In this document: piece by piece, positions 3,260 through 32,461 of the stretch
How the letters are laid out: every line of letters starts with the position of its first letter
How positions within the stretch are numbered: position 1 is the first letter of the stretch
Origin: Elusimicrobiota bacterium
GTDB lineage: Bacteria > Elusimicrobiota > Elusimicrobia > UBA1565 > UBA9628
Length of the DNA stretch: 64,000 nt
Direction of reading: 5' to 3'
Assembly (NCBI GenBank): GCA_023249675.1
Contig: JAHFCE010000004.1
Span: forward strand, 62,675 to 126,674
Notes under the pieces: model-generated
Databases searched by the model: none
Told to the model about the DNA's origin: nothing
The model's input: only the letters and a program-made list of their open reading frames with translations
Made by a program: the position numbers and the translations under genes

Positions 3260-4252
3260 CTATGGTCGATGCCGGTACTCGAGAGGCTGTCGGGCGATCT
3301 CGTCCCAATTTTTTACGACCCACTCCGCGGCTTCGGAAAGGCCGTCATCTAGCGACACGCTCGGACTCCAGCCGAGTTCGGCGCGCGCTTTGCTCGAGTC
3401 GAGCACATAGGCCCTGTCCTGGCCCGCGCGTTCCGCGACCGTGCGCGTCGCGGCGGCAAAATCCTTGCCCATGCGCCGGCAGAGACGCTCCACCAAGTCT
3501 CTGACCGCGATGCCGTCATCGGGAGAAAGATGGTAGATCTCGCCCAAACGCCCTTTTTCCAAAATCGCCAGCTCTCCGCGCGAGACGTCGCGCACGTGGA
3601 TGTAGGACTTGATCGCGCTTCCGCCGCCATGCAGCTCGATGGTCCGGCCCAGCTTGAGGTAGATGAGCGCGCGCGGGATGATCTTGAAGAGCTGTTGGCG
3701 CGCTCCATAGACGTTGGTGGCGCGCACGGTCAGCAGCGGGAGGCCGAACTGGCGGCGATAGACTTCCAGGAGCATATCGGCGGCAGCTTTGGAGGCGGCG
3801 TAGGGGGTGCTCGGGTTGAGGGCCGTCGATTCCTTGACGCGGCCGTCGCAGGCGCCGTAAGCCTCGGGAGAAGAGACGTGCAGGTAGCGCTTCAGCCACC
3901 GGCAGCGGCGCAGATGGTTGGCCAGGCGCGCGAGGGCCACGGTGTTGGTCTGATACCAATGCTCCGGATGCTCCCAGCTGGGGGCCACCTCGCTTTGCGC
4001 GGCGAAATTGACGATCTCCTCGGGACGTTCGCGATCGAGGAGATCGAAGAGGGCTTCCATGTCCCGGTTCAAGTCGAGGGCGAAATAGCGGTAGCGAGAG
4101 AGATCTGGGCGCGATTTGTAGCGCAGAAACAAGGCCGAACGCTCGATGGAACGGCTGACTCCGATGACCGCGCGCTCGGGATCATCAAGGAGAAGATCCG
4201 TGAAGTCCTGCCCTGAGAATGAATTCGCGCCTAGGACGAGTATTTTTTTCAT
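3260..4252 (-). CDS. NDP-sugar 4,6-dehydratase-like SDR
   Basis: 330 residues starting MKKILVLGANSFSGQDF. The family signature FAAQSEVAPSWEHP followed by the catalytic TPYAASKAAAD and ATNVYGARQQLFKIIPRA resembles GDP-mannose and dTDP-glucose 4,6-dehydratases, which make the 4-keto-6-deoxy intermediate. The ATG at 4252 overlaps the stop of the upstream HAD-phosphotransferase gene as ATGA, which decides the start and implies translational coupling. The tight packing indicates it works in the same sugar pathway. The nucleotide (GDP, dTDP, CDP or ADP) cannot be deduced by eye. Confidence 0.8.
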   Translation of the reverse strand: MKKILVLGANSFSGQDFTDLLLDDPERAVIGVSRSIERSALFLRYKSRPDLSRYRYFALDLNRDMEALFDLLDRERPEEIVNFAAQSEVAPSWEHPEHWYQTNTVALARLANHLRRCRWLKRYLHVSSPEAYGACDGRVKESTALNPSTPYAASKAAADMLLEVYRRQFGLPLLTVRATNVYGARQQLFKIIPRALIYLKLGRTIELHGGGSAIKSYIHVRDVSRGELAILEKGRLGEIYHLSPDDGIAVRDLVERLCRRMGKDFAAATRTVAERAGQDRAYVLDSSKARAELGWSPSVSLDDGLSEAAEWVVKNWDEIARQPLEYRHRP

Positions 4253-30783: not shown

Positions 30784-32175
30784 ATGAGCTTACCTGGCAC
30801 CCCCGACAGGCCCCTTTGCATCGCGATCATCGGAGCCGGACCTTCCGGCTTCTACGCCGCCGAAGCTCTGCTGAAGGCCCCCGGACTGGCGGTTCGCGTG
30901 GATCTCTACGACCGCCTGCCCACGCCGTTCGGACTGGTGCGCGGCGGCGTGGCGCCGGACCATCAAAAGATCAAGTCCGTCGTGATGGTCTATGAGAAAG
31001 TGGCCATGGATCCGCGCGTGCGTTTCTTCGGCCAGGTGAGGCTCGGGCGGGAGCTGACCATCGAGGACCTGCGCGCCCGCTACGATCAGATCGTTTTTGC
31101 GGTCGGCTGCGAGAGCGACCGGCGCATGGCGATTCCGGGCGAGGAACTGGCCGGCTCGCACTCGGCGACTGAATTCGTGGGCTGGTACAACGGTCATCCC
31201 GACCACCGTCACCGGAGCTTCGACCTATCCTGCGAGAGCGTGGCGGTCGTCGGCATCGGAAACGTCGCGATGGACGTGACCCGGCTGCTGGCCTGCGACC
31301 CCGAGCGGCTTGCTCAGACCGACATCGCCGATTACGCATTGGAGGCGTTGCGCCGCAGCCGGGTCAAGACCGTGTGGCTGCTCGGTCGCCGCGGTCCCGC
31401 CGAAGCCGCGTATTCCCCCGTCGAGATCGAGGAGTTCGGAAAGCTCGCCGGCTGCGATCTCGTGATCAAGCCGGAGGAGGCCGTTGTGGGCGCGGTTTCG
31501 CGCCTTGAGCGCGCCGAGGCGAACGACAAGAAGAAGGTCGCGTATGTCCAAGAGCATGCCGCGCTGGGTGAGGGGAGCCAGGTCCGCAAGATCCGGCTGC
31601 GTTTTTGCGTTTCGCCGGTCGAGATCCTCGGCGAAGGCGGCCGGGTCAAATCCGTCCGCTTGGAAAAGAACAAGCTCGTCGACGACGGCAAAGGCGGGGC
31701 CAGGTGCGTGGGCATCGGCGAATTTGAGACGATCCCGGCGGGGATGATCCTGCGCTCCGTCGGCTATCGCGGCGTGCCGATTCCAGGCGTGGCCTTCGAT
31801 GAAAAGTCGGGTCACATTCCGCACGAGGCCGGCCGCGTCGTTGCCGGGGACGCCGCGGTTCCGGGCGAGTACGTCGTCGGCTGGGCCAAGCGCGGCCCTT
31901 CGGGCCTCATCGGGACCAATCGCGCGGACTCGGTCCTGACCGTGCAGTCGATGCTCGAAGACCTGAAAGCCGGCCGCCTGCCGGCTCGGCCGGTCGACGC
32001 CTCCGCGGAAGCCGCGCCGAAGCTGCTGGAAGCGCGCGGCGCTAAGCCCGTGAGCTACGCCCAGTGGAAGAAGCTTGATGCGCTCGAACGCAGCCGCGGC
32101 GCCGAGCGCGGAAAAATCCGCGAGAAGTTCACGCAGATCGAGGATATGCTCGCTGCGCTGAGCGTCGGGCCCTAG
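30784..32175 (+). CDS. fprA: FprA/adrenodoxin-reductase-type ferredoxin-NADP reductase
   Basis: 463 residues. FAD site IAIIGAGPSGFYAAEAL, DRLPTPFGLVRGGVAPDHQKIK, NADP site VAVVGIGNVAMDVTRLL, and GWAKRGPSGLIGTNRADS near the C-terminus are the adrenodoxin-reductase (FprA, ARH1) pattern. The enzyme passes electrons between NADPH and ferredoxin-like proteins. A GGAG ribosome site sits 5-8 nt before the ATG at 30784. Linked to malic enzyme, which may supply reducing power (inference). Confidence 0.92.
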   Translation: MSLPGTPDRPLCIAIIGAGPSGFYAAEALLKAPGLAVRVDLYDRLPTPFGLVRGGVAPDHQKIKSVVMVYEKVAMDPRVRFFGQVRLGRELTIEDLRARYDQIVFAVGCESDRRMAIPGEELAGSHSATEFVGWYNGHPDHRHRSFDLSCESVAVVGIGNVAMDVTRLLACDPERLAQTDIADYALEALRRSRVKTVWLLGRRGPAEAAYSPVEIEEFGKLAGCDLVIKPEEAVVGAVSRLERAEANDKKKVAYVQEHAALGEGSQVRKIRLRFCVSPVEILGEGGRVKSVRLEKNKLVDDGKGGARCVGIGEFETIPAGMILRSVGYRGVPIPGVAFDEKSGHIPHEAGRVVAGDAAVPGEYVVGWAKRGPSGLIGTNRADSVLTVQSMLEDLKAGRLPARPVDASAEAAPKLLEARGAKPVSYAQWKKLDALERSRGAERGKIREKFTQIEDMLAALSVGP

Positions 32176-32183
32176 AAATTAGG

Positions 32184-32226
32184 AGGCGCCGAGACCGGCG
32201 TCCACTAAGGGACCGTCTCGGCGCCT
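32184..32226. terminator. Perfect 12-bp inverted repeat between convergent units
   Basis: AGGCGCCGAGAC and its exact complement are separated by 19 nt that include a GTCC/GGAC inner stem. Strong GC hairpin 9 nt after the reductase stop, without a long T run; it could terminate both the reductase operon and the putative small RNA. Confidence 0.5.
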
Positions 32227-32349
32227 CGAAGAACCCGCCCCGAAACCAACCTCCAGCCTGCCACTCACTTCATCGCCGGTTACGGCCTCGGCCTCAACTC
32301 GGCGTCCACCTCGCGGCGCCCACGGCACGAACGGCTTCGGAGCGGGTAT
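32184..32349 (-). ncRNA. Putative small RNA gene (rod-like, 6S-like shape possible)
   Basis: Between the convergent reductase and mutL ends, a minus-strand promoter (TTGACG, 16 nt, TATACT at 32356-32383) points into about 170 nt with no convincing reading frame. The predicted 5' end (32333-32347) can pair over 15 bp, with G-U pairs, with 32233-32247, closing a rod. The unit ends with a perfect 12-bp inverted repeat (32184-32195 / 32215-32226) with an inner 4-bp stem. A 6S RNA is conceivable because of the closed rod and length, but no diagnostic primary motif was recognised; it does not look like SRP RNA, tmRNA or RNase P RNA. Confidence 0.4.
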
Positions 32350-32383: not shown

Positions 32384-32397
32384 GACCCACGCCCGGT

Positions 32398-32434
32398 AAA
32401 AAAATTCAGGGCGAAAACGAATTGGGAGTTTTCG
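32398..32434 (-). terminator. Probable terminator of mutS-mutL
   Basis: On the minus strand a CGAAAAC/GTTTTCG hairpin (32412-32434) is followed after 7 nt by seven T residues (32404 down to 32398), 28 nt past the mutL stop. Confidence 0.4.
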
Positions 32435-32461
32435 TCAAGTGGCCGCCGCTCGCCGAGGGCG

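Follow-up and report, generated by a model that had tools for sequence, protein, structure and literature searches.

A putative Elusimicrobiota-restricted non-coding RNA family that appears to keep its 3' hairpin while the rest is swapped, resized or lost

Results

A structured unit downstream of mutL

We analysed a 64,000-nucleotide stretch of an Elusimicrobiota genome (hereafter, the window), in which the spacer following mutL carries a minus-strand unit composed of a promoter, a structured body, a terminal hairpin and a T-rich tail (Table 1). MutL (PF08676, PF01119) is encoded upstream of the unit on the same strand, and the gene for a pyridine-nucleotide oxidoreductase (PF07992) is convergent with it. 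The original prediction placed a minus-strand promoter here, downstream of a terminator-like hairpin belonging to mutL. The promoter was borne out: TTGACG, 16 nt and TATACT form a near-consensus promoter that is the only promoter-like site in the 800 bp between 31900 and 32700 (shuffles, mean 0.0), and the CTTGAC-N17-TATACT register and spacing are common to the units found in the family. The mutL hairpin fared less well, in that a 7-bp palindrome is present at this locus but is not kept in relatives. The UP-element-like A/T block is conserved in the genus, appearing as AATTTTTTACCG in relatives. Separately, CTTGAC-N17-TATACT promoters whose spacer is palindromic (TATATAGCGTATATGC) were noticed at G000:C50:37886-37914 and at comparable sites in many relatives throughout the order, and look like a common regulated promoter.

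Table 1. Features of the RNA unit and its upstream region, in window coordinates.
Feature	Position	Strand	Sequence or form	Basis or remark
Second upstream block	32431-32440	minus	CACTTGACG	~50 nt upstream of promoter; kept in a subset of the genus
A/T-rich block, UP-element-like	32397..32406	minus	AATTTTTTTA	sequence; ~14-23 nt upstream of -35 box
Whole RNA unit	32383-32181	minus	promoter, structured body, terminal hairpin, T-rich tail	
sigma70-type promoter	-35 32383-32378, -10 32361-32356	minus	TTGACG-16-TATACT	
Predicted transcript	32181..32349	minus	~170 nt, start ~7 nt past -10 box	promoter and terminal hairpin, fold z
Closing stem, 5' arm	32346-32333	minus	CCCGCTCCGAAGCC	pairs with 3' arm; fold and alignment
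Body core hairpin	32274..32304	minus	CGCCG-AGTTGA-GGC-CGAG-GCC-GTAAC-CGGCG	alignment A3
Closing stem, 3' arm	32247-32234	minus	GGTTTCGGGGCGGG	pairs with 5' arm; fold and alignment
Terminal hairpin, constant core of the family	32227-32183 (32183..32227)	minus		A2 covariation, CM R2 matches, G-U versus A-C
Terminal inverted repeat, 13 bp, perfect	32227-32215 with 32195-32183	minus	GAGGCGCCGAGAC / GTCTCGGCGCCTC	
1x4 internal loop	32214 / 32199-32196	minus		
Upper 4 bp	32213-32210 / 32203-32200	minus		
Apical loop, 6 nt	32209-32204	minus	CUUAGU	
3' tail, T-rich in family, terminator-like	32175..32182	minus	CTAATTTC	sequence

The predicted transcript is strongly folded, with an energy of -101.1 kcal/mol for the 173 nt from 32352 to 32180 (z = -5.06; 0/200 shuffles). 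Pairing of the unit's ends, put at 15 bp in the original prediction, holds as a closing stem of ~14 bp, and its conservation in relatives was confirmed: among 13 full-length members of the genus the stem is 89% paired, with 5 pairs changed on both sides. A 6-nt spacer separates this closed domain from the 45-nt terminal hairpin. Within the body, which is ~70 nt longer inside in many relatives and present in a shorter form in the source genome, the best conserved part in the genus is the core hairpin, whose CGCCG...YGAG...CGGCG pattern is nearly invariant in the same 13 members; one 3-bp body helix is kept in all of them (RNAalifold, alignment A3). A k-turn reading of this core was rejected by inspection, the loop sizes or sequences being unsuitable. 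The unit was also said to lack a convincing gene over its ~170 nt, and relatives give no coding signal: sense frames cross the body in some species and are interrupted by indels and stops in others, leaving no conserved open reading frame.

The terminal hairpin covaries as an RNA

The perfect inverted repeat that closes the unit is present as predicted, with one base pair more than the 12 originally counted. Its plan of 13 bp, a 1x4 internal loop, 4 bp and an apical loop accounts for 98.7% paired cells across 27 distinct terminal hairpins from three families, a percentage inflated by the fact that these hairpins were partly gathered by a script demanding the plan. The covariation among pairs is not inflated in this way, and covariance-model and exact-pattern matches are independent of the script. 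Both sides have changed in 11 of the 17 pairs, and the covariation score is 0.430 as against 0.187 for shuffled alignments (0/500) and at most 0.136 for slid registers. Imperfect pairs, read on the RNA strand, comprise 16 G-U and 0 A-C. This bias singles out the transcribed strand and would be unexpected for a DNA hairpin or an antisense RNA; together with the covariation, it argues that the terminal hairpin acts as RNA. The internal loop fits all 27 hairpins without gaps, with A opposite GCUU in 11 and G opposite GCCN, GACN and similar sequences in the other 16, while the apical loop ranges from 5 to 8 nt. Readings as SRP domain IV or as a CsrA-type GGA loop were discarded by inspection on account of unsuitable loop sizes or sequences.

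The hairpin is stable and GC-rich. The T run lies 2-5 nt off the stem and is interrupted in many members (AATTTC here), and an interrupted, offset run of this kind hints at a weak terminator. The anti-Shine-Dalgarno-like motif CCTCCT straddles the 3' end of the stem in nearly all units and species of the genus; it is not kept in other genera and is thus at most a local specialisation.

The unit is confined to Elusimicrobiota in the collections searched

Searched with a 282-nt DNA query, almost all genomes of the genus yielded the unit; identity is ~70-84% in the body and as high as 93% in the last 68 nt. In all 14 members with both features on one contig the unit lies downstream of mutL on the same strand, at distances from ~40 nt to 9.4 kb, and units occur near mutL in several other genera too. 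Covariance model R2, which describes the terminal hairpin with its stated structure, found a match in 17 of the 19 genomes sampled from the genus. The two exceptions are G017, where mutL is not matched either, and G001, where mutL is less than 500 nt from the start of a contig. R2 also matched genera g10, g17, g18 (7/7 genomes) and g19, a single genome in family f2, another in f3 and, more weakly, two sites in family f4 of the same class. At these f4 sites GGGTCTTGAC precedes a -10 box (CAATACT or TATACT), which only a few bases separate from a hairpin AGAGGCACAAAAGC...GCTTTTGTGCCTCT with a T-rich tail, so that f4 probably carries the hairpin unit as well. Across the phylum 32 of 341 genomes were matched; searches spanning over 40 genomes were strictly filtered, with part of the candidates scored. 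Variants in f2 genomes G019 and G046 were spotted by eye rather than by the model.

An exact-pattern scan of 84,980 species returned 30 matches, all in Elusimicrobiota metagenome-assembled genomes (MAGs). Twenty-eight are titled Elusimicrobia or Elusimicrobiota, among them GWA2_66_18, RBG_16_66_12 and the complete genome CP096137.1, whose unit lies at about 3,445,275-3,445,550, and the two contigs titled only 'bacterium' (4,929 and 50,203 bases) match genus members G011 and G005. The phages, plasmids and viral contigs searched contained no match to the unit. The lack of a recognised match to a known RNA was upheld by an Rfam search of 4227 families, which gave nothing relevant in the spacer at gathering score or at E<=10. 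We found no description of an Elusimicrobiota small RNA of this kind in the open-access full-text literature, which is not proof of absence. The suggestion of a lineage-specific RNA is well supported by the comparative evidence: the promoter, the closing stem and the terminal hairpin are all kept in relatives, with covariation, and neither an Rfam match nor a coding signal was found.

Promoter and hairpin are constant and the body is modular

Promoter and 3' hairpin are constant across the family, and the 5' body is absent, tiny or 130-284 nt long. The distance from the -10 box to the hairpin core is 9-11 nt in 7 units, 31-56 nt in 5 and 130-284 nt in 26. Beside mutL the unit is body-less in genera g10 and g18 and has a large body in g1; G002, also in g1, combines a mutL-side copy bearing just a 15-nt stem with two further copies bearing the large body. 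These comparisons show the terminal hairpin, and not the closing stem, to be the conserved core of a dispersed modular family.

Copies per genome range from 1, as in the source genome (R2), to about 7, and are lower bounds since nearly all genomes are fragmented MAGs. In g18 species the model returned 2-8 rows, a few of which are reverse-strand echoes of one hairpin, so that true copies reach ~7. Several paralogs, each with its own promoter and 3' hairpin, occur per genome in g18 and in G002. Other copies adjoin unrelated genes, including recA, a queE-like radical SAM gene, a secretion ATPase and a flavin reductase. G045 carries two units, separated by 2.7 kb, that share 98% identity along a 140-bp stretch; the match starts shortly ahead of the promoter and runs as far as the T run, and the sequences on either side are unrelated. 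The unit can therefore also spread as a precisely bounded transcription unit.

Such a pair, and the dispersal of copies beside unrelated genes, is what a small non-autonomous repeat element (a MITE- or REP-like DNA hairpin without function as an RNA gene) would produce. We nonetheless regard that explanation as improbable: the wobbles are strand specific (16 G-U, 0 A-C), promoter spacing and the order of hairpin and tail are kept, the mutL-side copy is vertically kept and co-directional, and phage, plasmid or viral copies were not found. The minimal units raise another alternative, for in them the hairpin and its T run come directly after the promoter, and the hairpin shares with intrinsic (Rho-independent) terminators a GC-rich stem followed by a T-rich tail. 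They could therefore be mere promoter-terminator pairs without RNA function, acting for example as a transcription insulator after mutL. The conserved 1x4 internal loop is superfluous for a terminator, however, as are compensatory changes in a fixed 17-bp plan and folded bodies of 120-270 nt; the unit further differs from a terminator in having its own promoter immediately upstream and a plan kept across genera and families. We consider this reading highly improbable. From these comparisons the unit is very likely a genuine RNA gene, and it looks like a member of an uncatalogued, Elusimicrobiota-only non-coding RNA family in which the 3' hairpin is kept while the rest is swapped, resized or lost.

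Discussion

The outline of the unit had been cautiously likened to that of 6S RNA, and the likeness does not go beyond outline: 6S RNA is likewise a closed rod from a strong promoter, ~170-240 nt long, and no other 6S RNA was recognised in 30 relatives. An RNA that mimics the open promoter and binds RNA polymerase would fit this outline. However, RF00013 had no match in the window at gathering score, in the spacer even at E<=10, or in any of the 30 relatives. The combination of closing stem, central bubble and terminal stem is not present in every Elusimicrobiota member, 7 related units lack a body altogether, several copies occur per genome in g18, and the body is divergent between genera. 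The lack of a model match, the body-less members and the multiple copies lead us to reject identity with 6S RNA, and we see scarcely any prospect that the RNA is even 6S-like in function.

Covariance models for SRP RNA (RF00169, RF01854) and tmRNA (RF00023) also had no match in the spacer, and the tmRNA of the source genome is located elsewhere, so both identities are rejected for this locus. As a side observation, the source genome (G000, 98.6% complete) gave a tmRNA match but none to the SRP RNA models, small or large; the search scored part of the candidates, so that an SRP RNA may be present but missed.

A closer parallel is offered by FopS of Bacteroides thetaiotaomicron, a set of 14 paralogs of ~65-70 nt that are bound by RbpB and carry a single-stranded 5' seed ahead of a terminator hairpin (PMC11697453). 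Like the Elusimicrobiota RNAs, FopS forms a set of multicopy paralogous small RNAs within one lineage, with a common promoter and a 3' terminator hairpin and a length near that of the minimal Elusimicrobiota members. FopS, however, keeps its 5' seed (PMC11697453), whereas the Elusimicrobiota RNA keeps the 3' hairpin with its 1x4 loop, and its 5' part is absent or an exchangeable folded domain. Sibling small RNAs are the nearest known kind, with the Elusimicrobiota family inverting the FopS plan.

That parallel brings with it the reading of the family as trans-acting, base-pairing sibling RNAs, in which the variable 5' bodies would supply target-specific seeds and the 3' hairpin would act as a terminator and stability element. 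Multicopy paralogs that have promoter and 3' hairpin in common but differ in their 5' parts conform to the usual sibling plan, of which FopS is a documented multicopy case (PMC11697453). Yet the 7 members with only 9-11 nt between -10 box and hairpin core have no single-stranded conserved seed, the bodies are for the most part tightly folded, with long closing stems, and Hfq was not detected in 48 relatives, among which ProQ was found only in G030, a genome without an R2 match. The usual chaperones are therefore unlikely partners, and we consider the sibling reading possible but doubtful.

We favour instead a role in protein binding. A strong sigma70 promoter would produce a short RNA ending in the constant hairpin, which would serve as the terminator or sit at it. 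In some members the hairpin would be essentially the whole RNA, ~55-60 nt and nearly devoid of a single-stranded 5' leader; other members, the source locus among them, would have a separately closed domain of ~30-284 nt between transcription start and hairpin. The minimal RNA would have no seed, because a long stem begins only a few nucleotides after its start, and the bases left unpaired are almost only the 6-nt loop, the 1x4 internal loop and the U tail, which favours protein binding over seed pairing. Indeed, a 17-bp hairpin with a 1x4 asymmetric loop and a small apical loop suggests the anatomy of a protein-binding RNA. Such an abundant, seedless hairpin RNA may bind a protein, as scaffold or decoy, and the 5' body may be an accessory domain that tunes this binding or adds a second interaction. 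Against this proposal, the long-form 5' bodies have unpaired stretches that could pair with mRNAs, and the protein-binding step is argued from anatomy; we judge the mechanism as a whole to be evenly balanced between right and wrong.

More speculatively, the family might constitute a modular system, in which a constant protein-docking hairpin and a stereotyped promoter are copied around the genome as a precise unit onto which folded 5' domains are grafted, giving an RNA-protein regulatory platform in a lineage where Hfq and ProQ were mostly not detected. We advance this wider picture tentatively, as something more likely to prove wrong than right. The architecture of constant hairpin and variable body nonetheless makes a clear prediction, namely that one protein binds all members through the hairpin with the 1x4 loop. 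Given the covariation support, the multiple copies in relatives and the long-kept place beside mutL, the family gives a tangible starting point for studying RNA regulation in a lineage that is almost uncultured and in which Hfq was not detected.

Finally, families f2 and f3 contain a second, similar kind of unit, with a strong promoter, a GUCG/GUUGCC-rich low-complexity body of ~150-400 nt and a different terminal hairpin (GGGGCAC-GA-stem, a loop with GAGGA, UG-GUGCCCC) with a T run. Examples lie at L136 ~1543 (minus), L138 ~1760 (minus), L140 ~3064 onward (plus) and, in L132, at CTTGACAAGTCGAGTATG. In f2, the region from mutL to the long RNA units also encodes small proteins whose C-termini are glycine-zipper-like (L136 734-1222, L138 893-1366, L140 near 3661-3957), and some of these genes abut the short hairpin unit at their ends.
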